Source of the DNA: Collimonas silvisoli
GTDB lineage: Bacteria; Pseudomonadota; Gammaproteobacteria; Burkholderiales; Burkholderiaceae_D
Length of the DNA: 64,000 bases
Direction: 5' to 3'
Assembly (NCBI RefSeq): GCF_018305005.1
Contig: NZ_JAGQEG010000005.1
Span: forward strand, 1-64,000
Below the pieces are notes generated by a model. That model did no database searches. It was not told the origin of the DNA and saw only the letters and a program-made list of their open reading frames with translations. The position numbers and the translations under genes were made by a program. This document shows positions 29,141 to 60,048 of this stretch, one piece after another. Position 1 is the stretch's first letter. Each line of letters starts with the position of its first letter.

Positions 29141-29303
29141 CTGGCGTAGCCAGCTGCATGCCCAGGTAGCCGAGACCTTCGAGGCTACGGCGCGATGTAT
29201 CGCGCTGGTTTTCTCTTCTTGGTGCCATTCGCACCGCTCACCCACAAGGGACGTCCTCCCTTGTGGGCCGGGACTCCCTTGGTACTTTTCAGGAGTTTCC
29301 CCG
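29141..29303 (+). ncRNA. repeated structured 5' leader, copy A (radC-motif-like)
   Basis: Ordered hairpins are GCTGGC/GCCAGC (29141-29155), then ATGCCCAGGTAGCC..GGCTACGG (29158-29190), then GCGCGA-TGTA-TCGCGC (29190-29205). A long CCCACAAGGGA/TCCCTTGTGGG hairpin (about 29240-29267) comes before the ribosome site AGGAG. Copies at 30619, 33622 and 59859 keep the middle hairpin and swap bases in the others while keeping pairing. The position, just before an ICE gene, suggests cis regulation. Confidence 0.65.
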
Positions 29304-30104
29304 ATGAATCATCAAGCCATCCGCGACCAACTGCCCCAGTTGGTGGCAGGTCATGTCCCGAGCAACACCCGTCGTTTCAAGTTTCGCATCTTCGACGGCA
29401 AACGGCAGGAGTCCCAACTGGGCTTCCACGTTGATCCCCAAGCGTTCTCGGGACGTGTAATCGCCAAGACCGACGAAGCCATCGTCGTCAAGACCGGACG
29501 CACCGAGTTCGCGGTTCTGGATCGCCACCTGACGACACCGGAGCCCGACGAAGGTGCCAACGTGCATGTCCAACCTTATGTGCGGCGCCGTTTCGACGGC
29601 CAGCGCGCCGATACACCTGAAGAACAAACCGAGTACACCGCCAACGGCACCCCGTATGTCGTCAAGCGGATGATTCTCGGCTCCGCGCCTGCGAAGCTGC
29701 CGGTTCCCGAACCACGCTGCCCGGAACTGCAGGACCTCATCCGTCAACTGGAGACGCTGCCGGCCCCCGACGGCATCCGGTGTATCACCCACCTGCTCGT
29801 AGACGCAGGCGCCCGGGACTTCGCCCTGGTCGATCCCCTGTCGAAAGACATCATCGCGACGCCACCGACGATCAGTTTCACCGTCGCCACCGCCAAGTTC
29901 ACCGGAAGAGTGAGCGTGCTCTACGAGCGCGCCGGCGATTCCTATGTCCTAGCGCTACACCAGGGCGACGTGCTGATCGAGCGGGTCGATTCGGTGTTCT
30001 TCGACTCACTCGGCGACACCCTCGCGCGTCTGATCGACGATGGCGAGTGGCGCCGCATCCACATCGACGTACTGCCGCGTGGACGCAAGCCGACCCGGCA
30101 CTGA
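29304..30104 (+). CDS. conserved ICE hypothetical protein
   Basis: The 266-residue soluble protein starts MNHQAIRDQLPQLVAGHVPSNTRRFKFRIFDGKRQESQLGFHVD behind CAGGAG. It has a beta-rich N-terminal half (SGRVIAKTDEAIVVKTGRTEFAVLDRHL) and a C-terminal half with CITHLLVDAGARDFALVDPLSKDIIATPPTISFTVATAKFTGRVSVLYER. No catalytic motif is evident. It follows leader copy A and its own terminator closes it, so it is a monocistronic unit. I recall similar proteins in other ICEs of this type, without a known role. Confidence 0.7.
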   Translation: MNHQAIRDQLPQLVAGHVPSNTRRFKFRIFDGKRQESQLGFHVDPQAFSGRVIAKTDEAIVVKTGRTEFAVLDRHLTTPEPDEGANVHVQPYVRRRFDGQRADTPEEQTEYTANGTPYVVKRMILGSAPAKLPVPEPRCPELQDLIRQLETLPAPDGIRCITHLLVDAGARDFALVDPLSKDIIATPPTISFTVATAKFTGRVSVLYERAGDSYVLALHQGDVLIERVDSVFFDSLGDTLARLIDDGEWRRIHIDVLPRGRKPTRH

Positions 30105-30130
30105 GCATCGGACTCCGCACTAACCCCACC

Positions 30131-30164
30131 CGCTTCTCGCCACTTCGGCGAGAAGCGCTTTTTT
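30131..30164 (+). terminator. rho-independent terminator
   Basis: GCTTCTCGCC-ACTTC-GGCGAGAAGC is a perfect 10-bp stem followed by GCTTTTTT. It lies 27 bp past the stop codon of the preceding gene. Confidence 0.9.
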
Positions 30165-30180
30165 CCCCAGGAGACATTCC

Positions 30181-30531
30181 ATGTTGATCTTCAAAGGCGC
30201 GGATCTGCGCCCGGTACTGCAAGAGGCCGTCGCCGGCCATGGCCGCGTCATTCTCGTCAAGGACCAGGGTGTCTACTTCCTGGCCGAGTTGGGCGAGCGC
30301 ACCGACGAGGGCCGCCAGAAACGACTGGCCTATGCGGTTGGTTGCGACCCGGACGTCGATCCCTTCGACGATTGGTGGGCACGGGCTCGCGCGGAACTTG
30401 GTGGCGACGACTTTGCCGAGTTCATCAACCCACAGGAGGATGTATTAGCACGCATCCTCGATAGCGAGGACGATCTCCAGCTCTCCGCCACCGCGACCCA
30501 CCTCTCGTTCGAAGCGGTGCCATCCAAATAG
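30181..30531 (+). CDS. DUF3085 protein
   Basis: The 116-residue protein has the DUF3085 pattern: LIFKGADLRPVLQEAVAGHGRVILVKDQGVYFLAELGE, then LAYAVGCDPDVDPFDDWWARARAELGGDDFAEFI (about 57-90). The start follows CAGGAG. It is small, acidic and cytoplasmic. DUF3085 genes occur on plasmids and ICEs among antirestriction and DNA-processing genes; no activity is known. It lies right behind a terminator. Confidence 0.8.
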   Translation: MLIFKGADLRPVLQEAVAGHGRVILVKDQGVYFLAELGERTDEGRQKRLAYAVGCDPDVDPFDDWWARARAELGGDDFAEFINPQEDVLARILDSEDDLQLSATATHLSFEAVPSK

Positions 30532-30618
30532 CGCAGGACCCAGCAGACTCGCCTAATACGGGGGCACGCCGCGTCCGATTTCTTGCTGCTCCCTTGCTCT
30601 GCCACGCTAGGCTGAAAT

Positions 30619-30838
30619 CATGTCCCGTCGACGAAGGTCGGCGACATGCCCAGGTAGCCCGGGTCATCAAGGCTACGGCACGGTTCCATCGTGCTGACCC
30701 AACCAGTTCGCTTCGGCATCCAGCGCGAACGACCGTCTAGTTATCGACGGCGATGCCTGTTCCTCAACCCACGCGGGGGTTCCACACCTCCCGTCCGGGT
30801 CGGGTGTGTCTCCGCCTTATCACCTAAGGAGATTCACC
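30619..30838 (+). ncRNA. repeated structured 5' leader, copy B (radC-motif-like)
   Basis: Hairpins in order are CATGTC/GACATG (30619-30647), GTAGCC (30654-30659)/GGCTAC (30671-30676), GCACG/CGTGC (about 30677-30693), and GGCATC/GATGCC enclosing CCGTC/GACGG (about 30714-30757). A last CACACC/GGTGTG hairpin precedes the ribosome site AAGGAG. The GCTGACCCA after the third hairpin also occurs in copy D. Confidence 0.65.
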
Positions 30839-31783
30839 ATGACCACCTCATCGAACGCCCAACCCAACGTCAAGGCCTTCTTCAACATCCATACCACAGG
30901 CATCGGCTTCCTCAAGCGCATCCGCGAGGTCAAGCCCAAAGGCAAAAAAAGCGATGCCTTCCTCGCGTGTTCAATCAGTGCGTTGAGTGGACCGGCCGAT
31001 CAACCAGTCTATCGTTACTTCGACGTGCGCGTGTCCGGTGCGAAAGCGCAGGATCTCGTCCGCAGCTACATGCGGGATGTCGAGGCGGGCCGTACCGTGC
31101 TGATCGATTTCCGACTGGGTGACCTCTGGCCGGACCTCTTCGTACGCACGACGGGCGAACATGCCGGTGAGACCGCTGTCAACTTGAAGGGTCGATTGTT
31201 GAAAGCCAGCGTGCTCGATGTGTCGGTGCTTCAGCAAATGGTCCACCACCGACTCATCACCCACGGCATCGGCTATATCAAGCGCATCTTCCCGGGGCGT
31301 GGCAATACCTCTCTGCGCCGCTGCTCCATCGCCGCCCTCAACGGCCCGACCGACGAAGCGGAGTACCGGTACTTCGATGTCAACGTCACCGATCCCTTGG
31401 TGGCCGCGCTACTCGACCAGTATGCCGACGACATCCGGGCCAAGCGCAAGGTGTTGATCAGCTTTCAGCTGGAGGACATGCAAACCGACTTCTTCACCCG
31501 TACCAAGGGCGAGGACGTAGGCGAACGGGTTCCCTTCATGAAGTCCACGCTGAGCAACATCGCTATGGTCAAGGTTGACGGCAACGAAGTCTATCGAGCG
31601 AAGCCGAAAGCGATCACCGAAGCAGTGGTTCAAGCTGCGCCGGTAACGGCATCGGAGCTGTCCGCTCCGGAGTCATCTGCTAGGCCCGACTCCTCCGCGA
31701 CCTCACCCGAGGCTGAGGTGGATGAACGCTTAGCCGAAAACGACGTCCTTGCAGATGAGCCCGTCATGGCAATGGCTGGCTAG
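30839..31783 (+). CDS. DUF3577/STY4534-family ICE protein with two repeats
   Basis: The 314-residue protein contains two copies of the DUF3577 domain. Repeat 1 (about 16-128) has HTTGIGFLKRIREV, ISALSGPADQPVYRYFDVRV and VLIDFRLGDLWPDLFVRTTGEHAGE. Repeat 2 (about 138-246) has ITHGIGYIKRIFPG, IAALNGPTDEAEYRYFDVNV and VLISFQLEDMQTDFFTRTKGEDVGE. The tail is acidic and disordered. Usual family members have one domain, so this is an internal duplication or fusion. The role is unknown; it has been annotated as a replication-associated ICE protein. It starts behind AAGGAG after leader copy B. Confidence 0.85.
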   Translation: MTTSSNAQPNVKAFFNIHTTGIGFLKRIREVKPKGKKSDAFLACSISALSGPADQPVYRYFDVRVSGAKAQDLVRSYMRDVEAGRTVLIDFRLGDLWPDLFVRTTGEHAGETAVNLKGRLLKASVLDVSVLQQMVHHRLITHGIGYIKRIFPGRGNTSLRRCSIAALNGPTDEAEYRYFDVNVTDPLVAALLDQYADDIRAKRKVLISFQLEDMQTDFFTRTKGEDVGERVPFMKSTLSNIAMVKVDGNEVYRAKPKAITEAVVQAAPVTASELSAPESSARPDSSATSPEAEVDERLAENDVLADEPVMAMAG

Positions 31784-31794
31784 TTCTGCCCTCC

Positions 31795-31822
31795 GGCCCC
31801 GTCTCGCGCGGGGCCTTTTTTT
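31795..31822 (+). terminator. rho-independent terminator
   Basis: GGCCCC-GTCTCGCGC-GGGGCC followed by seven T residues, 12 bp past the DUF3577 stop codon. Confidence 0.9.
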
Positions 31823-31890
31823 CTGCGATCGCTCGCCGCTTGGCTTTGTCGCCAGCCGCGAGTGTGCGCGTTCATCTTCAGGAGATTTCC

Positions 31891-32478
31891 ATGATCACCC
31901 TTTCTGGTCAATTAGCGATCAAGACTATCCACGGCCGCAACGGCGCCTTCAACGTCGGTCGCCTGGCAACATCCATCGGTGAGTTCGTCATCAAGAATGC
32001 CGAACTGGAGCAGTATCGCGAGGGGAAGTACGACGGCGATTTCGCCGTCGAGCGCATCTATCCGTACTCATACGCCACTGCGGGGCGCATGGTGATCGAA
32101 GTCCGGGCTCACTTGGCCGGTATGACGCTCTCGGGCGTCGATGGTCTGAGCAACGACGACGCTTCGAAATTGGCGACGCAGGAGCCCGATCCCATCGATG
32201 AAGAGACGGTCCCGAACGAGAGGCCGCAGCCCGCTGTAACGACGGCAGCGAAATCCTCGTCGACCACGCCCGATACCCCAGCGGCGTCGCCTGGCATCGA
32301 CACGGTACACAGCGCCGATGCCGAACTCTTCGGTCCGCTGTGGCCTCTTGGTGCCGTCGTCAAGCTCGACTCGACCGTCGATCGACTGACGCTGCGCCAG
32401 CAGTGCGTTCGCCTCAACGGCTTGGGGTACGAGTTTAAGCCGCTGACGCAAGAGTGGCTCCTGATCGCCACCCACTGA
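31891..32478 (+). CDS. DUF3275 protein
   Basis: The 195-residue protein matches DUF3275: MITLSGQLAIKTIHGRNGAFNVGRLATSIGEFVIKNAELEQYREGKYDGDFAVERIYPYSYATAGRMVIEVRAHL (1-76). A disordered Thr/Pro/Glu linker follows, then a C-terminal domain (GPLWPLGAVVKLDSTVDRLTLRQQCVRLNGLGYEFKPLTQEWLLI). The start follows CAGGAG. The N-terminal half looks like an OB-type or beta-barrel domain. The family is confined to ICEs and plasmids and has no known activity. Confidence 0.83.
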   Translation: MITLSGQLAIKTIHGRNGAFNVGRLATSIGEFVIKNAELEQYREGKYDGDFAVERIYPYSYATAGRMVIEVRAHLAGMTLSGVDGLSNDDASKLATQEPDPIDEETVPNERPQPAVTTAAKSSSTTPDTPAASPGIDTVHSADAELFGPLWPLGAVVKLDSTVDRLTLRQQCVRLNGLGYEFKPLTQEWLLIATH

Positions 32479-32600
32479 TCCCATCGCCGTACGCGCGGCG
32501 CTCCGACACCCGTCGTTTTCATCCTAGGCCTCCGCTCGCATACGGTTCCGAACCACCGTATGCGCGATGCCATCTCTTTCAAAGAGAACGTTAACCACAG

Positions 32601-32637
32601 CGGACCTCGCCCATCACGGGCTGGGTCCGTTTTTTTT
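32601..32637 (+). terminator. rho-independent terminator
   Basis: CGGACC/GGTCCG encloses GCCC/GGGC and is followed by eight T residues. It closes the DUF3275 unit. Confidence 0.92.
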
Positions 32638-32784
32638 GCTCGTCACCCATCTGCGGGGCAAGCGAAGATTGCGTTTCTGTCCATGTTCCGGACATTTGGC
32701 GCGGCGGCTACCGAGCGGCGCGTATGATTGCAGTGTTGTGGGTCAATTTTGTCAACTTACGGCTACTCCGCCAGCGGGTACATC

Positions 32785-33447
32785 ATGGCTGCACATAACG
32801 TCATCGAATTCGACTTGCTCAACAACGCCAAGGATTCTCTTCGCCAGGCGGTCGAATTGCTTGCGACCGAATCTATCGGCTCCAAACACGCTCGCCTAAA
32901 GCATTCCATCACGGCTTCGGCGCACTGCATTGAGTTACTCCTCAAGGAGCGACTTCGCAGAATCCATCCCGCATTCGTCTGGGAAAACGTCGACAAGTAT
33001 CCAAGCCTCGAAGCGCGAACGGTGACGGTCGACACCGCAATCGTCCGCCTCAAGTCGATCGGTAACATGGCATTTACCCAAGACGATGAGCGCACGCTCA
33101 AGTCTCTGCGGAACACGCGGAATGCGATCGAGCACTACGAATGGCGGGCATCCGAAAAAGAAGCAAAGATCATCGTCGGCAAGGCACTGAGCTTCGCATT
33201 CGCCTTCGCACATGACGAACTGCAAAGTGACCTCGCTGAAGACTTCAAAGCCGACGACATTTGGCAAATGCTTCTGGACGAGCTCTACCAGTTCGCTCAG
33301 GCCCATGGGGCAAGACTGGAAGCTCGCATGCGCGCAAAGGGCGAGTACCCCCAATGCTGCGACGAATGTAGCGAACTTACGGTTCCCATGTGGGGCGGAA
33401 GTTGCCAACTCTGCGGCCATTGGCAGTCGGTTGATGACGGCACCTAA
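32785..33447 (+). CDS. HEPN-type protein with C-terminal zinc ribbon
   Basis: The 220-residue, mostly helical protein keeps a HEPN RNase-type motif: Arg112-Asn113 to His117 in LRNTRNAIEHYEW (R-N-x3-H). It is preceded by helices such as KHSITASAHCIELLLKERLRRI. The C-terminus has four or five cysteines (191/192, 195, 207, 210) in CCDECS...CQLCGHW, a likely zinc ribbon. HEPN proteins with intact RxxxxH cut RNA in toxin-antitoxin and anti-phage systems. No MNT partner lies beside it. No clear ribosome site precedes the chosen ATG. A defence or RNA-cleaving role is inference. Confidence 0.65.
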   Translation: MAAHNVIEFDLLNNAKDSLRQAVELLATESIGSKHARLKHSITASAHCIELLLKERLRRIHPAFVWENVDKYPSLEARTVTVDTAIVRLKSIGNMAFTQDDERTLKSLRNTRNAIEHYEWRASEKEAKIIVGKALSFAFAFAHDELQSDLAEDFKADDIWQMLLDELYQFAQAHGARLEARMRAKGEYPQCCDECSELTVPMWGGSCQLCGHWQSVDDGT

Positions 33448-33621
33448 CCCGTTCTTCGAGGCGATCCGTCTATAGCGATCCGCTTACGTTTCGAACGCGG
33501 GCTGCCAGCCTTCCCGAAAGTAGTCACGCCACTGACTTGGTTCACCGCAAACAGGGGCAAGCAACGGTGCGGTTTTCCGCTCACCTGCCAGCGCCCGTGC
33601 GCGCATGCTGCGCCCATGTCT

Positions 33622-33862
33622 GCCGGCGTTGCCGGCTACATGCCCAAGTAGCCGAGACCTTCGAGGCTACGGTGCCTACGCACTGGTCGCGCTCTTCCCT
33701 CAACGTTTATCACCTACTGCGCAAGGCTCCGTCACGCGCCTGTCTCCGCAAGACTCAGGAAGACGGAGGCATTGCTCCGTATCAATCATCACATCAACCC
33801 ACAGGGGACGCTCCTTGCCCCTTGGGGCAGTGCGTCCCCGCGCTTTCATCTAGGACAACACC
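33622..33862 (+). ncRNA. repeated structured 5' leader, copy C (radC-motif-like)
   Basis: Hairpins are GCCGGC-GTT-GCCGGC (33622-33636), AAGTAGCCGAGACC..GGCTACGG (33647-33672) and GTGC-CTAC-GCAC (33672-33683). Farther on there is a two-tier hairpin, GGGGACGC/GCGTCCCC around GCCCC/GGGGC, at 33805-33840, just before the start codon at 33863. The middle hairpin is identical to copy A over 23 bases. Confidence 0.65.
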
Positions 33863-34516
33863 ATGCCCCTCTCATCCACCACCACCACCACGCTATATCG
33901 CATCGACGAGTGCCCGGACCTCATGGCCGACGCTTACATCGGCGACGAGCAAGGCAACCTGGTCTTTCTCTCCGCCTGGGCGCGCGACACCGCAGTCCAG
34001 GAATTCCTCGCCCGCTTGACCCTGGGTCGGAACGAACAGGGACTGGACCAGCTCCATCTGATCAGCGAACAAGGCGGCTCGATTCCGGTGTTCGTCGGCC
34101 ACGCCGATCAACTGGAAAAGAAGTCGACCCGCGCCTTCCGGCGCACCCTGTTCGGCTCCATCGTCCATCTCTGGCTCTACGACCAACGCTGCGTGCGGCC
34201 CGACAAGGCCAACGCCAGCGCGCTTGCCTTGCTTCCCCGGGATTCGTCGCACCGCATCGACCGATTGTGGCGGCTCACCCGGGACACCTGTCCGCTCCCG
34301 CTGCTCGATCACTGGCGGGACGTGGTGCTGGAACTGCTGCAGTCCCGGGCCATGCTCAACCGGCTACCCGTGGCCCTCGGTCCCCTCGAAGGTCACCGTC
34401 TGGCGCTCGACGTGCCGGCACTGTCCCAAGCCCTGGGCGAGTTGATCCGCAGCGGCAGGCTTAGCACCACACCGTGCGAGCCCGTCATCCCCGCACCACA
34501 ACTGCAAGTGGCCTGA
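33863..34516 (+). CDS. conserved ICE hypothetical protein
   Basis: The 217-residue soluble protein includes YRIDECPDLMADAYIGDEQGNLVFLSAWARDTAVQEFLARLTLG and FRRTLFGSIVHLWLYDQRCVRPDKANASALAL. A C-terminal helical part (LLDHWRDVVLELLQSRAMLNRLPVALGPLEGHRLALDVPALSQALGELI) follows. No catalytic motif is visible. It starts behind leader copy C with a weak ribosome site (AGGACAAC). I do not recognise a named family. Its place among DNA-processing genes is the only clue. Confidence 0.65.
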   Translation: MPLSSTTTTTLYRIDECPDLMADAYIGDEQGNLVFLSAWARDTAVQEFLARLTLGRNEQGLDQLHLISEQGGSIPVFVGHADQLEKKSTRAFRRTLFGSIVHLWLYDQRCVRPDKANASALALLPRDSSHRIDRLWRLTRDTCPLPLLDHWRDVVLELLQSRAMLNRLPVALGPLEGHRLALDVPALSQALGELIRSGRLSTTPCEPVIPAPQLQVA

Positions 34517-34578
34517 GCCACGCCCCGTCGGGACGCACGTCGCACACCGGCACCTTCATCCTCGACCTGGAGAATTTC

Positions 34579-35688
34579 ATGGCTCTCATGTTCCCTCGTA
34601 TCGCACGCAACTTCGCCAAGGCCGGCTACTACCCGACCGACGAAGCAACGCTCGAACGCACACTCCATGCGCTGGCGCCTGCCGCTGGGCCGCTGAGCAT
34701 CATCGACCCCTGTGCCGGCGAAGGCGTTGCCATCGCCGAAGCCGCTCACGCCCTCGGGCGCGAGCAGGTACGGGCTTACGCCGTGGAGTACGACGCCTCG
34801 CGCGCCGAGCATGCCCGGCATCTGGTGGACCGCTGTATTCATGGCGACCTGATGGACACCATCATCAGTCGCCAGGTCTTCGGTCTGATGTGGCTCAACC
34901 CGCCCTACGGCGACCTCGCCAAGGATGCCAATGGCAATCTCGGCTACCAGGGTCAAGGCAGGGCCAGGCTCGAAAAGCTGTTCTATCAACGCTGCTTGCC
35001 GTTGCTGCAGTACGACGGCCTGCTGGTATTCATCGTGCCGTATTCGGTGCTCGATGCCGAGCTCGTCGGCTGGCTGACCCGTCACTTTACCGACCTGCGC
35101 ATCTACCGAGCGGTGGAGACGCAGTTCAAGCAAGTGGTGATCTACGGCCGGCGCACGCGCCAGCGCGACCAGTCCACGGACGCATCCAGAGCCGTACGCG
35201 AGCGGCTGCTGCAGATTGGCCAAGGCGTGATCGAAGCTGAGGAACTGCCCATCGAGTGGCCGTTCCAGCCGTACGTTGTCCCCGTGAGCCCGTCGGAACC
35301 GGAGCACTTCTATCGAGTGACCATGGAACCCGGGCAGTTCGCCGACGAAGTTCAGCGACTGCAAGGCCTTTGGCCCTCGATGGACACCTATCTGGGCGCA
35401 TCACAGCAGTCGCTGCGACCGCCGGCGCGTGCCTTGTCCCACTGGCATCTGGCTTTGGCGCTGGCCGCGGGGGCGATCTCCGGAGTGGTTCAGTCCAAGA
35501 CCGGACGTGTACTCGTGGTCAAGGGCGACACCCACAAGGAAAAGTCGCTCACCCGCGAATACACCGAACGCGACGACGGCTCCATCGCCGAAACACGCAT
35601 CCTCACCGACCGCTTCGTCCCCGTGATCCGGGCCTGGGATATGACTCCCGGTTCCGTGACCCATGGGCAGGTGCTGACGATCCGGTAA
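34579..35688 (+). CDS. DUF6094-type SAM-dependent methyltransferase
   Basis: The 369-residue protein has a SAM-binding motif I (LSIIDPCAGEGVAIAEAAHAL, about 38-58), an acidic motif II (YAVEYDAS) and the N6-adenine catalytic motif NPPY (residues 107-110). A C-terminal domain seen in ICE DUF6094 proteins (about 245-369) follows. It begins MALMFPRIARNFAKAGYYPTDEATLER, typical of this family. The start follows TGGAGA. It could methylate DNA, giving the ICE a third modification enzyme, or another substrate. The family has not been characterised to my knowledge. Confidence 0.82.
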   Translation: MALMFPRIARNFAKAGYYPTDEATLERTLHALAPAAGPLSIIDPCAGEGVAIAEAAHALGREQVRAYAVEYDASRAEHARHLVDRCIHGDLMDTIISRQVFGLMWLNPPYGDLAKDANGNLGYQGQGRARLEKLFYQRCLPLLQYDGLLVFIVPYSVLDAELVGWLTRHFTDLRIYRAVETQFKQVVIYGRRTRQRDQSTDASRAVRERLLQIGQGVIEAEELPIEWPFQPYVVPVSPSEPEHFYRVTMEPGQFADEVQRLQGLWPSMDTYLGASQQSLRPPARALSHWHLALALAAGAISGVVQSKTGRVLVVKGDTHKEKSLTREYTERDDGSIAETRILTDRFVPVIRAWDMTPGSVTHGQVLTIR

Positions 35689-35777
35689 CCGGATGTCCTC
35701 CCCCCCGTTTTCAACCGCAACACACTGCCGCCCAACCCGGTGGCACACCCATTAATCGACACCCTCAGGAGGTCACC

Positions 35778-36098
35778 ATGTTCATCCGCTTTCATTCCGC
35801 TTCACGGAAAGTAACGTCGCTCCCACTCTTCTGCTTCAGCACGCTTCATGTGAGTGAGAAAGTCCGCTGGCTTGGCAACAATGGCCTGATCGATCCTATC
35901 GAATTTCTTCGCCGTCATATGCGTGGCGACTGGGGTGACGTCGATAGCGACACGCGTCTGAGCAACGACGCTTCGCTTGCGATTGATGGACCACTCACCT
36001 CGCGCTATGCGGTGAATCGCCAGCTCCACTTACTAATCGAAACCAGCGAGGAAGGCATCACCAACATCTTTTTGGAGGGAGAAACCGCCAAACCGTGA
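35778..36098 (+). CDS. GDWGD-motif small protein, paralog 1
   Basis: The 106-residue protein has the core IDPIEFLRRHMRGDWGDVDSDTRLSNDASLAID (about 39-71). A short beta-rich end follows (YAVNRQLHLLIETSEEGITNIFLEG). The same core occurs in the next two genes, so this is the first of three tandem paralogs. It starts behind AGGAGG. Relatives on plasmids end IITEADRS.TT.LLP; this copy has diverged most there. The function is unknown, though the family is often found near antirestriction genes. Confidence 0.75.
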   Translation: MFIRFHSASRKVTSLPLFCFSTLHVSEKVRWLGNNGLIDPIEFLRRHMRGDWGDVDSDTRLSNDASLAIDGPLTSRYAVNRQLHLLIETSEEGITNIFLEGETAKP

Positions 36099-43563: not shown

Positions 43564-43687
43564 CATTTCCGCATGGGTTCGCCCCAGCATCCGGCACAAA
43601 TCGGGTCATCCACCCTTGCGCTTTGTTTGCAGCTGCTGCGGCGCGCAGCAGCGAAGGTGACGGTTCGACACGTCAGCGACCCGTTCC

Positions 43688-49715: not shown

Positions 49716-49931
49716 TCAGTCGCCGTCGTCGTTCAGTTCGGCGCGCAGGATGGTCACGCACCGCGGCGCCCGAATGCAGAGCTTCACCTGTCCGCCCCTC
49801 ACAGTGACCACTTCGAGCAGGATGCCTCGCGTTCGCAACTGGTGCATCAACTCATCGGCATCAACGTCCGAACGAGCCCATAGCCAGATCTTCTCTCCTG
49901 CCGTACGCGTCAATAGCAAGCCAGCTGTCAT
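49716..49931 (-). CDS. CsrA/RsmA-family RNA-binding protein, RsmN-like
   Basis: The 71-residue protein has the CsrA pattern with a helical insertion: LLLTRTAGEKIWL (beta 1-2), then an insert DADELMHQLRTRG, then ILLEVVTVRGGQVKLCIRAPRCVTILRAEL. The RNA-contact regions (LLLTR at the N-terminus; Arg before AEL at the C-terminus) are kept. An inserted helix between strands is what distinguishes RsmN/RsmF of Pseudomonas from ordinary CsrA. The ATG at 49931 follows GGAG. It lies antisense in the transfer operon, between TIGR03747 and RAQPRD. It probably binds GGA-bearing leaders to control translation. Confidence 0.75.
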   Translation of the reverse strand: MTAGLLLTRTAGEKIWLWARSDVDADELMHQLRTRGILLEVVTVRGGQVKLCIRAPRCVTILRAELNDDGD

Positions 49932-50250
49932 TGCTTCGTCTCCATGCCGTTGTGCGAACCAGAACGTTCGCCTGCCGTAGTACTCCTCTTCTCGATCCAC
50001 CTTGCCGTCGCGACGCCAAGGCGCCCTCACCATGCACGGAATCGACCGCAGGCGACATAGCGCCGCTGCATTTTCGGATAAGTCTTGCCTGCGCTGGTGG
50101 CGTGGAACGTCCATTCCGCCACCACACGCTTCGCTTTGGCGCAGCGCGCCGATGACATAAACCGGGTGGCTCGGCGTGCCCATTGTTTGCGGCGCCGCGC
50201 GCCGTTGCGCCTGAATCTTTCGCTATTCCCATCGACCCAGAATCGCGAAC
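49932..50250. other. divergent spacer between csrA-like and RAQPRD genes
   Basis: No gene is visible. It should hold promoters for both directions, implying that the second half of the transfer operon can be transcribed independently of the first. Long frames here are Arg-rich and lack starts. Confidence 0.4.
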
Positions 50251-52269: not shown

Positions 52270-53147
52270 AGCGCCTGCTCGTCCTCCTCGCGATCAGCCT
52301 GCCGCTCACCGCGCAAGCCGTCGAGATCTTGCGCTGGGAGCGCATGCCACTGGCAGTGCCGCTGCGGGTGAACCAGGAGCGCGTCGTGTTTATCGATCGC
52401 AACGTGCGCGTCGGCGTGCCGGCAGAACTGGACGGCAAACTGCGTGTGCAGAGCGCAGGCGGCGCCATTTATCTGCGCGCCAACGACGTCATCGAACCGT
52501 CGCGGCTGCAGTTGCAGGACGCCGACACCGGCGCACTGATCCTGCTCGACATTGCAGCCACACCAGCGCGCAAGGATCAGCCGGCCCTGGAGCCGGTGCG
52601 AATCGTCGAGGGCGACAGCACGCCCAAGCGCTATGGCGCTACCGGTAAATCGCCCGGCGGCGAAGAGGCGGACACCGCAGAAGCGACCGAGCGCCGCGCG
52701 CGAGAATCTCCCGTGCCGGTGGTGCTGACTCGCTATGCCGCGCAAAACCTGTTTGCCCCGCTGCGTACCGTCGAATCGGTGGAAGGCATCGGTCGCGCCC
52801 ATGTACGGCGTGACTTGCCGTTGAGTTCGCTGCTGCCGTCGTTGCCCGTGCAGCCACACGCACTCGCGGCCTGGCAACTGGACGGTTTCTGGGTCACCGC
52901 CGTGCGTCTGCGCAATGCCTCGGGAACCACACTGCCGCTGGACCCGCGTGCACTGCAAGGCGACTTCGTCGCGGCGACTTTCCAGCACCCCGACCTAGGC
53001 CCCGCCGGGCACGCCAGCGACACCACGGTGGTGTACTTGGTGACCCGCGGCCACGGCCTGGCCGAATCGCTACTGCCTGCGATCAGCCCATTCGATACGG
53101 CACTCAACCTGCCGGCGCCTACGACGGGAGGCCACGATGAAAAGTAA
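52266..53147 (+). CDS. TIGR03749-family ICE protein (TraK/VirB9-like)
   Basis: The 293-residue secreted protein has a signal peptide (LVLLAISLPLTAQA) and the family opening VEILRWERMPLAVPLRVNQERVVFIDRNVRVGVPAELDGKLRVQSAGGAIYLRA. The beta-rich C-terminal domain (HALAAWQLDGFWVTAVRLRNASGTTLPLDPRALQGDFVAATFQ) matches TraK-type outer-membrane core subunits. Overlaps both neighbours, as expected in this operon. Confidence 0.87.
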   Translation: MKRLLVLLAISLPLTAQAVEILRWERMPLAVPLRVNQERVVFIDRNVRVGVPAELDGKLRVQSAGGAIYLRANDVIEPSRLQLQDADTGALILLDIAATPARKDQPALEPVRIVEGDSTPKRYGATGKSPGGEEADTAEATERRARESPVPVVLTRYAAQNLFAPLRTVESVEGIGRAHVRRDLPLSSLLPSLPVQPHALAAWQLDGFWVTAVRLRNASGTTLPLDPRALQGDFVAATFQHPDLGPAGHASDTTVVYLVTRGHGLAESLLPAISPFDTALNLPAPTTGGHDEK

Positions 53148-54588
53148 CCGCCTCTTGAAGTGGCTGGTCGTGCCCGTGGTACTGCTGGTGCTGATCGTCG
53201 GCGTCAAGCTGTTCGGCGGTCGCGACCGCAGCGGTAACGCGATCGACAACGGCCCGCGCCTGACCCCCGACGAAATGAAGACCCTGGGTATTGAAGGCGA
53301 CACCCCGCGCGACACCGTCGCCACCCTGGTGGGTCAGGTCAAGCAACTACGCACGGAACTACAGAGTGCCGCGGGCAACACCAAGCAGCAGCAAGAAGAA
53401 AACGAGCGCCTGCGGCAACGCGAGGCGTCGATCGACCAACGCATCCAGGGCGCGCTCAGCGACGAACGCCAGCGCCTACAGGACGAGCGCTCGGCGCTCG
53501 ACAGCGACAAGAACCAGACGGCAGGCGCGCTGCAGGAGATGCAACAACGGCTCGAAAACCTCTCCAGGCAAAGCGGTGGACAGGCGGATCTGCCGGTTGG
53601 CCTGGGCCTGGAAAGCGGCGACGGCAAAACCTTCAGCAGCGGCATGCGCTGGGTCGAACCCAACGATGCGCGTCCCGCTGAAGGCTCGGCCGGACATAGT
53701 TCGAGCAGCAAGGCGTCGACCTTCCCAACCAGTTTCGCACCGGCGCAAACGGCGCTGGAGCAACCCGGCGAAACCGTTCGCCACCGCGACCGCGATCTGG
53801 ACAAAGAGCGCCGGCTCAAGCCGATCTATACCGTGCCTTCGAACTCGACACTCATGGGTTCGATCGCCATGACCGCATTGATTGGCCGGGTCCCCGTGGA
53901 CGGAACGGTCAACGACCCGTTCCCGTTCAAAGTGTTGATCGGCCCGGACAACCTCACCGCGAATGGCATCGACCTGCCCGATGTGGCAGGCGCCGTTCTC
54001 AGCGGCACGGCCTCGGGCGACTGGACGCTGTCGTGCGTGCGCGGAAACGTCCGTTCGATGACCTTCGTCTTCAAGGACGGTACGGTACGCACCGTCCCTG
54101 GCGCCAACAGGAACGACCGTGACGAGGACGACAGCGGAAACACTCAGAGCGCCAGCGGCGTCGCCACCGACAGCAGTCTGGGCTGGATCAGCGATCCGCA
54201 TGGCATTCCCTGCGTCAGCGGAGAACGGCGCAGCAACGCCCAGCAATACCTCGGCACCCAGGCACTGATCACCGCGGCGGGTGCGGCCGCCGCATCGCTG
54301 ATCAAGTCGGATAACGGCAGCGTTGCCGTTGTCTCCGGCAACAACGGGCAGCTCGGCACCGTGGGCATCTCCGGCAACGAAGCCATGGGCCGCATTCTCG
54401 CCGGTGGCGTGCAAGACATGTCGCAGTGGGTGAACAAGCTCTACGGGCAGGCATTCGCCGCCGTCTATGTCCAGCCCGGTGCGAAGGTCGCCGTGCACCT
54501 CGAACGTCCCATCAACATCGACTACGACCCGAAGGGACGGCGCGTCGACTACCGCACCGGAGGCACGCATGCGCCCGATCTGGACTAA
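53137..54588 (+). CDS. TIGR03752-family ICE protein (TraB/VirB10-like)
   Basis: The 483-residue protein has an N-terminal membrane helix (LLKWLVVPVVLLVLIVGVKLF, about 5-25) and a long coiled coil (about 60-150). A C-terminal VirB10-like beta domain (IYTVPSNSTLMGSIAMTALIGRVPVDGTVNDPFPFKVLIGPDNLTANGIDLPDVAGAVLSG, about 230-295) contains a cysteine pair (SCVRGN; GIPCVSGER). The end VYVQPGAKVAVHLERPINIDYDP is typical. It spans the envelope and links the inner-membrane motors to the outer core. Confidence 0.9.
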   Translation: MKSNRLLKWLVVPVVLLVLIVGVKLFGGRDRSGNAIDNGPRLTPDEMKTLGIEGDTPRDTVATLVGQVKQLRTELQSAAGNTKQQQEENERLRQREASIDQRIQGALSDERQRLQDERSALDSDKNQTAGALQEMQQRLENLSRQSGGQADLPVGLGLESGDGKTFSSGMRWVEPNDARPAEGSAGHSSSSKASTFPTSFAPAQTALEQPGETVRHRDRDLDKERRLKPIYTVPSNSTLMGSIAMTALIGRVPVDGTVNDPFPFKVLIGPDNLTANGIDLPDVAGAVLSGTASGDWTLSCVRGNVRSMTFVFKDGTVRTVPGANRNDRDEDDSGNTQSASGVATDSSLGWISDPHGIPCVSGERRSNAQQYLGTQALITAAGAAAASLIKSDNGSVAVVSGNNGQLGTVGISGNEAMGRILAGGVQDMSQWVNKLYGQAFAAVYVQPGAKVAVHLERPINIDYDPKGRRVDYRTGGTHAPDLD

Positions 54589-54994
54589 CCGCCTTGGCCT
54601 GCTGGTGTCAGTTGCGTTGCTTGCCGGCTGCGCCACCACCAAGGAGAAGCTGTTGCCGCACAACGGCAACAGCATGCTCGACGTGTGGAACCAGGAAAGC
54701 GGTGGCAGCGGCGCCGGCGGCCAGGCAGCGCGCCAGTTGTTTGACGCCCGGCAACAGTTGCGTCGCCCGCTTTCCGAATCGGGCGTGGCCATCGACGGCA
54801 GCGCTTACACCCGCACCGCACAGAACGAGATCTACCGGCAGTTCCACCGGCTGCCCAATCCCGATCTGGTGATGTACGTGTATCCCCACCTGGCCGGAAC
54901 GGACCCGGTGCCCGTGCCGGGCTACAGCACGGTATTCCCGCTCTATCAGCGCGTGCAGTATGCGCTGCCGGGCGAACGCGTCGAAGCGTACTAG
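54569..54994 (+). CDS. TIGR03751-family conjugal transfer lipoprotein (TraV/VirB7-like)
   Basis: The 141-residue lipoprotein has a signal ending LLAGC (Cys about 21), then TTKEKLLPHNGNSMLDVWNQ. A C-terminal YRQFHRLPNPDLVMYVYPHLAGTDPVPVPGYSTVFPLYQRVQYA is the family signature. The ATG at 54569 lies inside the end of the previous gene. It should anchor the outer-membrane core. Its last 4 bases overlap the convergent unknown membrane gene. Confidence 0.88.
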   Translation: MRPIWTNRLGLLVSVALLAGCATTKEKLLPHNGNSMLDVWNQESGGSGAGGQAARQLFDARQQLRRPLSESGVAIDGSAYTRTAQNEIYRQFHRLPNPDLVMYVYPHLAGTDPVPVPGYSTVFPLYQRVQYALPGERVEAY

Positions 54995-56022
54995 CGGCGC
55001 CGGCGCACGACTCGGTGACCATCAACGTGAATCGTGCGCGGACCCACAAAGCGCATCCAGCCGGGCCCCAACATGAGGCCCAGCCCACCACCCATAAGTA
55101 TCGCGCCGACCGTGCGAACAACGTCGTGCTTGAACGACAGCATCATCAACCCCAATACGCTCACGGCCGCGCCTGCGATCAGATAGCGCCACAGGTCCCA
55201 ACGGTACGGTTCGATGTCCATCACGCCCACACGGACCTGTTCAGTGTCTTCCTCGTACTGCTTGCGCACCTGCTCCAGGTCCAGCGTACGCTCCGACTCG
55301 CGTGTGGAACCCGAACGTTTATGCAAGCGCCGCGCGTCGATGTCACGGCGTATATGCCACTCACTCGGCAACCCCGGCACCTCCCGCCAGCGTTTGACCT
55401 TGACGCCATAGGCCGTCAGCAGTCGCGCCGAAACCTGTGGCCGACGCAGCACCTGCACGTAGCGCCCATCGAGGATCGCGAGCCACTCGTCGCGCTCGTC
55501 GTCGGGCTTGATCAGCACGAGGCGGTCGGCCGCGGGGTAATCTCGTTCGCAAATCTGCGCGGCAATCGCCGGTTGACCGTGCGCACGCATGAACGCGACG
55601 CGATGCTTGCCTTCATGTGCGGTCAGGATGCCCAACGGCCGATACCAGTCATACAGCGCACTGTTCGATTCCGAGGGCGTTGCGTACTGCTCGATGCGTC
55701 CGGCAACCTCTTTTGAATCGACGTGCTCCGGCAATCCATCAATGCTGGCTCCAAGCACATAGCGAGGGTCCACCAGCGCCTGGAATGGTCGTGCCTCGTC
55801 TGGGCACCAGTGCAAAAACGGCACTACCAGATACAACACGCTGTCGCCCCAGTAGGCCCCATAGATCGCGTTGTCCATCCAGTCGTCCAGGTACGCCTTT
55901 TTCATTCCTCCTCGAGCATGGCGATCCATCTCCACCTTCAGCGCCGTCAGCGCTTCCACTTCTCGCTGCAATGCACTGGAAACGCCCAGCGCAAGCACAT
56001 CCACACGTTGATCTATTTCCAT
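54991..56022 (-). CDS. unknown membrane protein with ParB-like motif, antisense in transfer operon
   Basis: The 343-residue protein is not a known secretion component. Residues about 134-156 (LTAHEGKHRVAFMRAHGQPAIAAQI) resemble the ParB/sulfiredoxin nucleotide-binding box (GHRR.A....G...I.A). The N-terminal part is helical. A charged stretch (about 235-270) leads to two C-terminal membrane helices (YLIAGAAVSVLGLMMLSF and TVGAILMGGGLGLMLGPG) and a basic end. I chose the ATG at 56022 behind GGGGTAACG; an upstream ATG at 56094 is less likely. It lies between the lipoprotein and ATPase genes on the opposite strand. Exclusion, regulation or defence are all possible. Confidence 0.6.
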   Translation of the reverse strand: MEIDQRVDVLALGVSSALQREVEALTALKVEMDRHARGGMKKAYLDDWMDNAIYGAYWGDSVLYLVVPFLHWCPDEARPFQALVDPRYVLGASIDGLPEHVDSKEVAGRIEQYATPSESNSALYDWYRPLGILTAHEGKHRVAFMRAHGQPAIAAQICERDYPAADRLVLIKPDDERDEWLAILDGRYVQVLRRPQVSARLLTAYGVKVKRWREVPGLPSEWHIRRDIDARRLHKRSGSTRESERTLDLEQVRKQYEEDTEQVRVGVMDIEPYRWDLWRYLIAGAAVSVLGLMMLSFKHDVVRTVGAILMGGGLGLMLGPGWMRFVGPRTIHVDGHRVVRRRR

Positions 56023-56262
56023 CGTTACCCCAGAACGGTTTGCCCACCCAGAAAAGAAGGCCGAACCGTCATGGTAACTGTCACTCGCATGCACATAGGT
56101 TGAGCCCAGCGACCGAAAGTGAATACGGGCACGGCGCGCATCGCATTTCCGATGGGAGCATAAACGCCGGCGACGGACACTCGCGGTTCATCGATTGAAC
56201 CGGAGCTGCCCTTTGACACCCGACCGCATTCCCACTCCCGGTGGGTGCCACGAGTCACGTTT

Positions 56263-59136
56263 ATGCGCCTGCGCATGAGAAACGCGCGCCGGCCGATCGA
56301 CGGCCTCCGGCAAGCGCCTGACAATGCCTGGCAACGTCATGTCGCCACACTGGCGGTACACCATATCGCCGAGCCGGGGCAGCGTTTTGCCGACCGCACG
56401 CGGCCGGCGACGCAGGCCGACGAACAAGCGCTCTACGATGTCGCCCCATCGTTCGTCGACATGTTGCCGTGGGTCGAGTATCTGCCGGACTCGAACAGTC
56501 TGCTGCTCGAGGATGGTGTATCAGTCGCCGCGTTCTTCGAACTCACCCCCGTGGGCACCGAGGGTCGTGAACTGCACTGGCTAGCCCGGGTACGCGACAG
56601 CCTGGAAAACGCCTTGCAAGACAGCTTCGACGAACTGGATGAGAACCCGTGGGTCGTCCAACTGTATGCCCAGGATGAAACCGATTGGGACAGTTATCTC
56701 GCCACGCTGCACGGCTACATCCAACCGCGCGCGCAAGGCACCGCCTTCAGCGACTTCTACGAACGCTTCTTCGCCCACCATCTGCACGCTATCTCCACGC
56801 CCGGCGGGCTGTTCGAAGACAGCACCGTCACTCGCCTGCCCTGGCGCGGCCAGCAACGCCGCGTGCGCATGGTGGTCTATCGCCGCGCGCCGGCTGTCGC
56901 GTCGCGGCGTGGGCAGTCGCCCGAACACACCCTGACCGTCATCTGCGACCGGCTGTTGGGTGGCCTGTCCAATACCGGTGTCCGCTGCCGGCGTCTGGCA
57001 GCGGCAGACGTGCACGACTGGTTGCTGCGCTGGTTCAACCCCCACCCCGCGGCGCTCGGCCCCTCGGCGGCCGACCGCGAGTGCTTCTATGCGTTGACAG
57101 CCTACCCGGAGGAAACCGAAGCCGGTGAGATCGAACTGGCCAGCGGCACGGAGTTCGCGCAGCGCCTGTTCTTCGGCCAGCCGCACTCCGACGTCGAGAA
57201 CGGCGTGTGGCGCTTCGACGGCATGCCGCACAGGGTCATGACAGTGGACCGGCTGCGCATGCCGCCTGGCATCGGACACCTGACCGGCGAGACGCGCAAA
57301 GGCGGTGATGCCGTCAATGCCCTGTTCGACCAGATGCCGGAAGACACGGTGATGTGCCTGACCCTGGTCGCCACGCCGCAGGACGTGCTCGAAGCCCATT
57401 TGAACCACCTAAGCAAGAAGGCCGTCGGCGACACCCTGGCCTCGGAACAGGCGCGCGAGGATGTGCAAGAGGCACGCAGCATCATCGGCAGCTCGCACAA
57501 GCTTTACCGCGGCGCGCTGGCGTTCTACCTGCGCGGGCGCGACCTGAGCGAGCTCGACGCGCGCGGCCTGCAACTGGCGAACGTGATGCTCAATGCCGGG
57601 CTGCAACCGGTGCGCGAAGAAGACGAGGTGGCGCCGCTGAATAGCTACCTGCGCTGGCTACCGTGCATGTTCGACCCGGCGAAAGACAAACGCCTGTGGT
57701 ACACGCAGTTGATGTTCGCCCAACACGCAGCGAACCTCGCTCCGGTCTGGGGACGCAGCCAAGGCACCGGGCATCCCGGCATCACGATGTTCAACCGCGG
57801 TGGTGGCGTCATCACGTTCGACCCGTTGAACCGGCTCGACCGGCAAATGAACGCGCACCTGTTCCTGTTCGGCCCAACCGGCTCAGGCAAGAGCGCCACA
57901 CTCAACAACATTCTCAACCAGGTCACTGCCGTGTACCGGCCGCGATTATTCATCGTCGAGGCCGGCAACTCGTTCGGCCTGTACGGCGATTTCGCGGCAC
58001 GCTTGAAGCTGACCGTACACCGGGTCAAGCTGTCGCCGGGCTCCGGCGTCAGCCTGGCGCCGTTCGCCGACGCCTGGCGTCTGGTCGACACGCCCGGCAA
58101 GGTACAGACGCTGGACGCCGACGCCTTGGACGAAGCAGCCGATGCAACGGCAGAAAACGCCGAAGGCGACGAACAACGCGATGTGCTGGGCGAACTGGAG
58201 ATCACCGCGCGCCTGATGATCACCGGCGGCGAAGAGCGTGAAGAAGCGCGCATGACACGCGCCGACCGCAGCCTGATTCGCCAGTGCATTCTCGACGCAG
58301 CCAAGCGCTGCGTGGCCGACAAGCGCACCGTACTGACGCGCGACGTGCGTGATGCGCTGCGCGAGCGAGGCCACGACGCTTCGCTACCCGAATCGCGGCG
58401 CACGCGGCTGCTGGAAATGGCCGACGCGATGGACATGTTCACCCAGGGCGTGGACGGCGAGATGTTTGACCGGCCCGGCACACCGTGGCCCGAGGTCGAC
58501 ATCACCATTGTCGACCTCGCCACCTTCGCGCGTGAAGGCTACGGCGCCCAGCTCTCGATCGCCTACATCAGCCTTATCAACACCGTGAACAACATCGCCG
58601 AGCGCGACCAGTTCCTCGGCCGGCCGATCATCAACGTCACCGACGAAGGGCACATCATCACCAAGAACCCGCTGCTGTCGCCCTACATCGTGAAAATCAC
58701 CAAGATGTGGCGCAAGCTCGGCGCGTGGTTCTGGCTGGCGACGCAAAACCTAGACGACCTGCCGAAGGCCGCCGAGCCCATGCTCAACATGATCGAGTGG
58801 TGGATCTGCCTGAGCATGCCGCCGGACGAAGTCGAGAAGATCGCCCGGTTCCGTGAGTTGAATGCGTCGCAGAAAGCCCTAATGCTGTCGGCGCGCAAGG
58901 AAGCCGGCAAGTTCACCGAGGGCGTCATCCTGTCGAAATCCATGGAAGTGTTGTTTCGCGCCGTACCGCCTAGCTTGTACCTGGCCATGGCGATGACGGA
59001 ACCGGAAGAGAAAGCCGAACGCTTCCGCCTGATGCAGCAGCACGGCATCAGCGAGCTCGACGCGGCGTTCATGGTGGCCGAGCGAATCGACCGCGCACGC
59101 GGCATCGAGCCACTGGCGCTCGATCTGCACAGCTGA
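56263..59136 (+). CDS. conjugative transfer ATPase, TraC/VirB4 class (TIGR03744)
   Basis: The 957-residue protein has an N-terminal domain with YDVAPSFVDMLPWVEYLPDSNSLLLEDGVSVAAFFELTPVGTEGR, Walker A GPTGSGKSAT (537-546) and a C-terminal motor domain. That domain has VDITIVDLATFAREGYGAQLSIAYISLINTV, the Walker B region PIINVTDEGHIITKNPLLSPYI and the FWLATQNLDDLP sensor. It powers pilus assembly and substrate transport at the inner membrane. The start is uncertain: ATG 56263 or an in-frame GTG at 56245; neither has a strong ribosome site. The gap before it is the antisense insertion, so it needs a local promoter. Confidence 0.9.
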   Translation: MRLRMRNARRPIDGLRQAPDNAWQRHVATLAVHHIAEPGQRFADRTRPATQADEQALYDVAPSFVDMLPWVEYLPDSNSLLLEDGVSVAAFFELTPVGTEGRELHWLARVRDSLENALQDSFDELDENPWVVQLYAQDETDWDSYLATLHGYIQPRAQGTAFSDFYERFFAHHLHAISTPGGLFEDSTVTRLPWRGQQRRVRMVVYRRAPAVASRRGQSPEHTLTVICDRLLGGLSNTGVRCRRLAAADVHDWLLRWFNPHPAALGPSAADRECFYALTAYPEETEAGEIELASGTEFAQRLFFGQPHSDVENGVWRFDGMPHRVMTVDRLRMPPGIGHLTGETRKGGDAVNALFDQMPEDTVMCLTLVATPQDVLEAHLNHLSKKAVGDTLASEQAREDVQEARSIIGSSHKLYRGALAFYLRGRDLSELDARGLQLANVMLNAGLQPVREEDEVAPLNSYLRWLPCMFDPAKDKRLWYTQLMFAQHAANLAPVWGRSQGTGHPGITMFNRGGGVITFDPLNRLDRQMNAHLFLFGPTGSGKSATLNNILNQVTAVYRPRLFIVEAGNSFGLYGDFAARLKLTVHRVKLSPGSGVSLAPFADAWRLVDTPGKVQTLDADALDEAADATAENAEGDEQRDVLGELEITARLMITGGEEREEARMTRADRSLIRQCILDAAKRCVADKRTVLTRDVRDALRERGHDASLPESRRTRLLEMADAMDMFTQGVDGEMFDRPGTPWPEVDITIVDLATFAREGYGAQLSIAYISLINTVNNIAERDQFLGRPIINVTDEGHIITKNPLLSPYIVKITKMWRKLGAWFWLATQNLDDLPKAAEPMLNMIEWWICLSMPPDEVEKIARFRELNASQKALMLSARKEAGKFTEGVILSKSMEVLFRAVPPSLYLAMAMTEPEEKAERFRLMQQHGISELDAAFMVAERIDRARGIEPLALDLHS

Positions 59137-59147
59137 TCGAGAACACC

Positions 59148-59885
59148 ATGAAGCACAACCCGCCGCTTTCCCGCCCCCTCCGGCTGCTGATCGTGTGGAC
59201 GCTCGTCGCCCTGATGGTGCTCGCCCTCTGGTGGCTGCGCCCGTCACGCGCGCCCGCGCCGCCGGGCGCGAACCCCTCGCCCCCCGCAACGGAGGCGACC
59301 TCCGGTCCGCCTTGGCATTACGGAAACGCCGAGGCGCGCTTCACACTGGTGCTGTTCGCCGACCTGGAGTGCGAGCACTGCCGCACCTACTTTCCCCGGC
59401 TCATGCAGTGGGTTGATGCGCATCCCGACGTCATGTTGCAGTGGCATCACCGCCCCTTGCCAATCCACGAACCGGCCGCGACGCAGGAGGCACGGCTCGC
59501 CGAATGCCTCGGCAAGGTCAAAGGTGCCGCGGCCTTCTGGAACGCCATCGCCTGGATCTACCAGCACACGCGCGGCAATGGCCAGGGCCTGCCGGACGAT
59601 GCGCCACCGCCAGGGATGACTCCGGCCGTGCGCCACTGCGTCAACGACGAGGCATCCGCCGCCGCGGTGCGCAGCCAGGCAGAGGACGCCGTGCACGCCG
59701 GCATCAACGCCACGCCAACGCTGCACTTGTCCGATCGCGAAACCGGTGGCTCGACCCTCCTGCAAGGCGCAGTCGAGGGCGACGTGCTGCTCTCCGCCTT
59801 GGACTGGCTTGCCGGCGCGTCGCCACATCCATTGAACACGCCACACACCGAGATGCCTGCTGACGATGTCAGCGTGCCTAGGTAG
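59148..59885 (+). CDS. DsbA/DsbG-like thiol:disulfide protein
   Basis: The 245-residue protein has an N-terminal membrane anchor (LLIVWTLVALMVLALWWL, about 13-30) and a periplasmic thioredoxin-fold domain. The redox motif is CEHC (Cys75, Cys78) in LVLFADLECEHCRTYFPRL, and the cis-Pro is in INATPTLHL. It probably forms or isomerises disulfides in the cysteine-rich TIGR03756/03755 and TraG-like partners encoded next. It starts 11 bp after the ATPase. Its final codons already belong to RNA leader copy D. Confidence 0.87.
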   Translation: MKHNPPLSRPLRLLIVWTLVALMVLALWWLRPSRAPAPPGANPSPPATEATSGPPWHYGNAEARFTLVLFADLECEHCRTYFPRLMQWVDAHPDVMLQWHHRPLPIHEPAATQEARLAECLGKVKGAAAFWNAIAWIYQHTRGNGQGLPDDAPPPGMTPAVRHCVNDEASAAAVRSQAEDAVHAGINATPTLHLSDRETGGSTLLQGAVEGDVLLSALDWLAGASPHPLNTPHTEMPADDVSVPR

Positions 59886-60048
59886 CCACGGTCTTCAAGG
59901 CTACGGCGTGACTCCGTCTCGCTGACCCACCCGTTCGCTTCGCATCCCCACGGCGAACAGCCGGATCAACAGAACCGGTGGATGCCGATCGTCCCCGCCA
60001 AAGGGTCTCGTCCCCCACGGGCGAGCCCTCCGCACCCAGGAGGAAGTC
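59859..60048 (+). ncRNA. repeated structured 5' leader, copy D, upstream of radC
   Basis: Hairpins are GCTGAC-GAT-GTCAGC (59859-59873), GTAGCC (59882-59887)/GGCTAC (59899-59904) and a GCG.GA/TC.CGC hairpin (about 59905-59921). Then come GCTGACCCA and a long-range GCATCC/GGATGC pairing (about 59942-59986) before AGGAGG. It begins inside the end of the DsbG-like gene. This gene context is what the published radC RNA motif was named for, as I recall it. Confidence 0.7.

Follow-up and report, generated by a model that had tools for sequence, protein, structure and literature searches.

Five radC RNA copies in a conjugative element of Collimonas silvisoli

The first 64,000 nucleotides (nt) of contig NZ_JAGQEG010000005.1 of Collimonas silvisoli (assembly GCF_018305005.1), a stretch referred to as a whole as the window, encode according to Pfam an integrase, ParA, DUF2857, AcaB, DUF3158, a topoisomerase, a TraD/TraG-like protein, TraC, a DsbA-like protein and TraU, and judged by this gene content the window belongs to an integrative conjugative element (ICE). 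A known RNA family, the radC RNA (Rfam RF01754), is present here in five copies, all on the plus strand and all above the gathering score of 40, each standing as a leader ahead of a gene. A sequence-only reading of the window had singled out four of these leaders as one repeated structured RNA and had supposed that it may be the radC RNA motif. The four blocks sit where it had placed them, with the quoted hairpin arms correct and starts 10-20 nt inside the Rfam matches, and the Rfam search bears out the supposition for all four; its count was incomplete, as the copy at 27072..27208 (76.1 bits) had been missed. Beyond these five no radC RNA was found in a search of the whole 5.66-Mb genome, and a more permissive scan gave no additional match.

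The copy at 27072 carries a 3′ domain with helix P4 and pseudoknot 2 and precedes the gene of a small protein without Pfam or NCBIfam match (27276..27527, plus strand, ATG at 27276). The second copy (29122..29268, 88.8 bits), of a short class with P1-P3 and pseudoknot 1 and with a 3′ half unlike the family, is followed by a plus-strand gene for a 266-aa protein with a sub-threshold KfrB match only (29304..30104). The third (30609..30756, 113.2 bits) is of the full class and leads the gene of a DUF3577/STY4534 family ICE replication protein with two DUF3577 stretches (30839..31783, plus strand), a tandem duplicate also seen in two of the other genomes with radC RNA (G568 and G616), while two more (G321 and G430) have a single one. 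The fourth (33605..33743, 74.8 bits) keeps the core, with a 3′ half that is poorly conserved and aligned with weak posterior, and stands before a 217-aa protein without Pfam or NCBIfam match (33863..34516, plus strand). The fifth (59843..59985, 96.2 bits), again of the full class, starts within the 3′ end of the open reading frame (ORF) of the DsbA-like protein and precedes the gene of a RadC-like JAB protein (60049..60543, plus strand; PF04002, 144 bits). That the genes behind the four copies first noticed are unrelated holds at the level of Pfam.

Occurrence among genomes, related loci and plasmids

In a class-level sample, 2 of 369 genomes (the own genome and G321) had RF01754 above the gathering score; in a family-level sample it was 4 of 294 (the own genome, G430, G568 and G616), and of 14 control genomes none; two further candidates, G487 (34.8 bits) and G024 (32.8 bits), were discarded, being below the gathering score and of sequences unlike the motif. 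The four other genomes, G321, G430, G568 and G616, have 4, 4, 3 and 5 copies. As far as these samples reach, few genomes have the radC RNA, and its presence is bound to such conjugative elements.

A scan of genome contigs with the window's own DUF3577 protein gave no match, and related loci were taken as the best 80 of 368 relatives from a DUF3577-alignment scan of named genomes. With a core model built from 21 copies of five elements (the window and the four other genomes), 235 copies were found in the window and the 80 loci, at least one per locus and all 235 on the strand of DUF3577, and an independent nhmmer run likewise gave 235 copies, all plus. In 79 of the 80 loci a copy lies about 242-245 nt ahead of the DUF3577 start (230-245 nt across the family with the window included); in the exception, L049, a copy is present, but elsewhere. 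When 234 of the copies were sorted by downstream ORF (a partial copy at the edge of L081 being dropped), 80 including that of the window preceded DUF3577, and 67, 58 and 26 preceded ORFs of the 27276, 29304 and 33863 types, named after the genes of the window; three were singletons, one of them the window's RadC.

From 62 plasmid records with a DUF3577 match 13 were chosen and covered for about 10-17 kb around DUF3577. Six of them have radC RNA (18 copies), also before an Rpn-family gene, an HATPase-type gene and several unknown genes; within the same reach, none was found in the other seven, even with filters off. The copies of the window and the 80 loci, too, stand before unrelated gene families. 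In the copy before the Rpn-family gene (L126:5127-5444) the hairpins adjoin a very short ORF, possibly an upstream ORF or a sign of a wrong start, and the annotated start lies further down.

Structure of the RNA and its functional strand

The sequence-only reading had argued for covariation within an RNA, and in an alignment of 121 distinct copies 94.8% of the cells of the named structure pair and 332 cells are doubly changed, where 500 shuffles average 106 and none is as high, so that the structure is one at the level of RNA; the alignment was fitted to the nested helices, towards which the counts lean. A DNA-level repeat without RNA function was rejected, the copies being only about 62% alike and yet covarying. 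The hairpins originally named are real, and the description was incomplete: it lacked a further hairpin, P4, two pseudoknots and the division of the 3′ half into two classes.

Pseudoknot 1 joins the loop of P2 (GAUC type) with bases after P3 (GAUC type). Although it was left out of the model, 84.0% of its cells pair in the 121 copies and four of its five pairs are doubly changed, the outermost one mostly remaining open (76 of 121). A set of 15 copies from plasmids, outside the model, gives 87.7% of paired cells and double changes at the same number of pairs, four of five. Helix P4 is formed by the 3′ domain in the DUF3577, 27276 and RadC types, with 443 of 444 cells paired, and the loop of P4 pairs with the far end of the domain as pseudoknot 2. 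An alignment-free search located the latter where it was expected in 72 of 74 distinct domains, and it has at least six Watson-Crick pairs in 61 of 73 domains (one P4-less domain being dropped) against about 9% of shuffles; this supersedes an earlier count on a MAFFT alignment, 63.7% of cells, which partly reflected the misalignment of one family. Both P4 and pseudoknot 2 are present in 14 of 15 plasmid copies, where compensatory types include GCATCC/GGATGC, GCTTCC/GGAAGC, GCACTC/GAGTGC and GCGCTC/GAGCGC, and in the window in the copies at 27072, 30609 and 59843; in the copy at 30609 sequence pairing places P4 at 30706-30711 with 30725-30730 and pseudoknot 2 at 30715-30720 with 30752-30757 (plus strand). 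The copies at 29122 and 33605, aligned with low posterior in the 3′ half, were left out of the count of 3′ domains, and by eye the domain with P4 and pseudoknot 2 was not seen in the 29304 and 33863 types. P4 and both pseudoknots lie outside the structure line of the Rfam model used. A list in the CaCoFold study of 2020 (PMC7657543) places radC among families for which the structures of Rfam and ZWD disagree and lack covarying pairs; P4 and the pseudoknots may therefore already be known, and pseudoknots 1 and 2 may not be new.

G-U cells outnumber A-C cells by 226 to 62, and by 154 to 26 once two poorly formed edge pairs are set aside, a case in which same-column shuffles give 345 to 219; these counts, like those of the structure, are of sequences and not of independent events. 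As a fold on the other strand would tolerate A-C, the excess of G-U on the sense strand points to a functional fold on the strand of the mRNA.

An upstream dyad and the presumed start of transcription

The most conserved positions upstream of the intergenic copies form a dyad, AAnnnGG-N12-CCnnnTT. Scored with a weight matrix from 40 dereplicated boxes, which excluded the window and in which close relatives of the window, G321, G568 and G616 may remain, the dyad lies 56-58 nt before the RNA in all 16 intergenic copies of the five elements (scores 9.4-21.3), whereas the score before the five RadC-gene copies is at most 2.1, all five being without a dyad. Leaving out one training locus taken as equal to G430 brought no change for the window, G321, G568 and G616, and scores of at least 9.4 are reached at 39 of 127,936 positions of the window. 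Its four dyads, all on the plus strand, are at 27015..27046 (score 15.3, 57 nt ahead of the RNA), 29065..29096 (10.5, the weakest; 57 nt), 30553..30584 (13.3; 56 nt) and 33547..33578 (17.2; 58 nt).

The dyad is likely the site of an activator, which may be linked to AcaB/DUF2857 or to the BisDC activator of ICEclc. Two strong dyads stand in the window without radC RNA, at 50157-50188 (score 18.5), 94 nt ahead of ORF 50251 encoding an RAQPRD protein, and at 43596-43627 (score 15.7), 92 nt ahead of ORF 43688; these are probably other promoters of the same activator, and the set of dyad promoters is therefore probably larger than that of the RNA.

In plasmids, TTGAC is found 24-25 nt before the RNA in 8 of 9 Pseudomonas-type copies and in none of 6 others (three copies of L137 excluded). 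RNA positions 1-6 would serve as the -10 element and transcripts would start near P1. A sigma-70 scan of 26900-34600 found no promoter-like site (0 against 1.7 expected), which fits activator-dependent promoters without proving them.

The five RadC-gene copies start inside the preceding ORF, whose stop codon falls at RNA position 41 or 45 (position 41 for the DsbA-like ORF and the copy at 59843), so that the ribosomes of the preceding gene end inside the RNA. In these copies of the five elements (59843-59885 in the window) the stop is the TAG in a conserved CCCAGGTAG or CCTAGGTAG, or adjoins it. Since they lack the dyad and begin in an ORF, RNA and promoter are separable, and the RNA has a function of its own beside the promoter.

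Predicted hairpins over the ribosome-binding sites

Between the RNA and the AUG most leaders are predicted to form two hairpins in succession, I and II, the second of which holds the ribosome-binding site. In the leader of the 29304 gene the predicted hairpin I is at 29241..29267 and hairpin II, over the ribosome-binding site and with an opening cost of 7.0 kcal/mol, at 29270..29302; in the DUF3577 leader the predicted hairpin II at 30803..30838 pairs GGTG-TCTCC with GGAGA-CACC by the AUG and hides the site at a cost of 8.7 kcal/mol (all on the plus strand).

For the comparison with control ORFs, 24, 32, 22, 16 and 5 distinct leaders of the five families were reduced to 9, 15, 9, 10 and 5, leaders of the L047 type and other near-identical ones being removed, and 47 were tested. 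The median predicted cost of opening the ribosome-binding site is 7.9 kcal/mol in these 47 against 4.6 kcal/mol in the 111 ORFs that serve as controls, drawn from the same loci (p 1e-8), with family medians of 9.5 (DUF3577), 9.6 (RadC), 7.9 (27276 type), 7.0 (29304 type) and 6.2 (33863 type). The cost is above that of the controls in four of the five families, which is a separate matter from a coupling to the RNA. When hairpin strands were swapped between families, own pairing ranked at a mean percentile of 0.70 in leaders (p 8e-5) against 0.51 in controls, the families reaching 0.92, 0.93, 0.83, 0.63 and 0.30.

A candidate translational switch and its alternatives

On balance, and by a narrow judgement, we regard the radC RNA as a cis-acting translational switch for a small, activator-driven ICE regulon. 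Each copy would act in cis on the mRNA that carries it, as a compact 5′ leader RNA with two pseudoknots. The four dyad-linked copies of the window would probably form the very start of mRNAs from activator-dependent ICE promoters, with the activator on the dyad, and the fifth would lie inside an operon, across the boundary between the DsbA-like gene and radC. In most family leaders the gene-specific hairpin after the RNA would hold the ribosome-binding site, often together with the bases up to the AUG, and by default would keep translation low, until either the binding of an effector to the radC RNA or a different fold during synthesis opens it; one signal could thereby release several unrelated ICE genes. 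The sequence-only reading had raised one signal for a scattered gene set as a possibility, and as such it agrees with the common RF01754 identity, the common strand, the covariation and the G-U bias.

The comparison of sequences carries the family identity, the folding on the mRNA strand, the covarying helices and pseudoknots, the linkage to the dyad and the larger share of hidden ribosome-binding sites than in controls; from these we infer control at translation and not at transcription, a default off state and a coupling of RNA and hairpin. Several results weigh against these steps. The 33863 type does not differ from controls in opening cost (p 0.15) and fails the swap test (0.30), and in the 14 plasmid leaders alone the swap test is not significant (0.65, p 0.15). 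In the window, the costs for the 27276, RadC and 33863 genes are 5.0, 3.4 and 1.5 kcal/mol, so that only the DUF3577 and 29304 leaders, two of five, exceed 5.0 kcal/mol, with the control median at 4.6. In predicted folds the site is paired upstream in 77 of 111 controls as against 44 of 47 leaders, and the controls are mechanical ORFs, some of which are perhaps not genes, while related leaders are non-independent events. The link between hairpins I and II is weak as well, with 8 of 53 leaders at or below 0.05 and a mean fraction of 0.35 (8 of 61 leaders without a parsable hairpin pair being dropped). A general pseudoknot between the loop of hairpin I and the 5′ strand of hairpin II was likewise not retained, being suggestive in DUF3577 leaders only and weak over the 53.

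An alternative is an element of mRNA stability or processing that would not switch translation, a 5′ cap-like structure or an RNase site, with the start-codon hairpins as ordinary GC-rich structure. Two of the five window copies lack a strongly hidden ribosome-binding site, the RNA would lie at the very 5′ end of the mRNA, its first conserved bases being -10-like and followed by P1, and one copy is placed like a processing site, with a gene of the same operon on either side. We nevertheless consider this explanation unlikely: in most families both the opening costs and the swap test set the leaders apart from control ORFs, and two pseudoknots with a conserved core would exceed the needs of a protective stem.

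Still less probable is transcription attenuation, in which the RNA or its hairpins would terminate transcription and a signal would allow read-through. P3 of the copy at 29122 is followed by a T-rich tract, with a terminator-like site at 29188-29207, but the other three copies within 26900-34600 are without such a site, although the region holds 12 terminator-like sites against 6.5 expected; one in four copies lies within the scatter expected from shuffles.

Promoters of the Frpo kind are folded single-stranded DNA used on the transferred strand in the recipient. That the radC RNA is of this kind, as the several copies before small ICE genes might recall from leading-region promoters, is most improbable, since a fold of the template strand would tolerate A-C and not G-U on the sense strand, where the data show the reverse, and four window copies have a separate upstream dyad.

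If the radC RNA is a common translational switch, conjugative elements would control their own genes post-transcriptionally by one RNA repeated before unrelated genes, and the search for the signal would have a definite starting point. Its anatomy, with promoter-linked copies, a promoter-free copy in an operon and gene-specific hairpins over the ribosome-binding sites, makes the switch reading testable.

What might read the RNA

The sequence-only reading had pointed to a csrA-like gene of the ICE. Its ORF is real (49716-50183, minus strand; PF02599, 35.1 bits, in the C-terminal domain) and holds the only CsrA match of the genome; it lies antisense between transfer genes. Yet of the four other genomes that carry radC RNA three are devoid of any CsrA match, the only match of the fourth lies outside the stretch around its RNA copies, and tblastn with the ORF found no significant match in the stretches from the four genomes. 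In this comparison the csrA-like gene is not a conserved partner, and there is very little likelihood that the protein reads the leaders.

Relatives of the window's DUF3275 protein, 217-aa protein, DUF6094 methylase and helicase are found in all six plasmid elements with the RNA, whereas five of the seven without it have none of the four; the other two, L128 and L129, have distant relatives of this module at 34-40% identity, with a helicase at 57% in L128 only. By its distribution the module is no more than a lead, strongly confounded by phylogeny. A wider reading, which we hold as tentative and rather doubtful, makes the radC RNA the shared receiver of a second, post-transcriptional layer of control in a large group of ICEs: activator-driven dyad promoters would supply the mRNAs, a subset of which, for DNA processing and unknown genes, would be kept untranslated by unrelated hairpins until a single signal, borne by the element or tied to the transfer state, reaches the common RNA, and signal or reader may lie in the module.

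The proteins of the regulon were also compared by structure and by defence-system profiles. The AlphaFold model of the 29304 protein is middling (mean predicted local distance difference test, pLDDT, of 60) and found no match in the PDB at an E-value of 0.001 or better, that of the 33863 protein is poor (mean pLDDT 42.5), and no solved relative of DUF3577 was found. PADLOC gave weak matches only, for 4 of 10 regulon proteins, the best at 0.0029. Apart from the regulon, positions 1-113 on the minus strand, at the window edge, match tmRNA and permuted tmRNA below threshold, possibly because of a cut tmRNA gene.

Comparison with known systems

The radC RNA motif was described in 2010, and a table of that work apparently lists it as an RNA with a likely cis-regulatory role and its status as a riboswitch as an open question (Weinberg et al., PMC2864571). 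In the literature searched no function for it was found, and it has been a candidate cis-regulatory RNA without explanation since then. The window copies resemble RF01754 in sequence, in core structure and in their position before ICE genes including radC, and differ from it in the diverging 3′ half of those at 29122 and 33605.

Translational riboswitches combine a 5′ position and a conserved core with a gene-specific hairpin downstream that holds the ribosome-binding site. The radC leaders share the 5′ position, the conserved core and the gene-specific downstream hairpin; unlike in translational riboswitches, the genes are those of a mobile element and not of a metabolic pathway, one copy lies inside an operon and no ligand is known.

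The transfer-competence promoters of ICEclc are several and scattered and share a common 27 bp motif and one activator (PMC9286271). The window likewise has scattered probable promoters with a short motif, here a 26-bp dyad, the comparison of the two motifs being one of description. The main text of that work mentions no radC RNA, leader or untranslated region, and the window joins to its scattered probable promoters the radC RNA.

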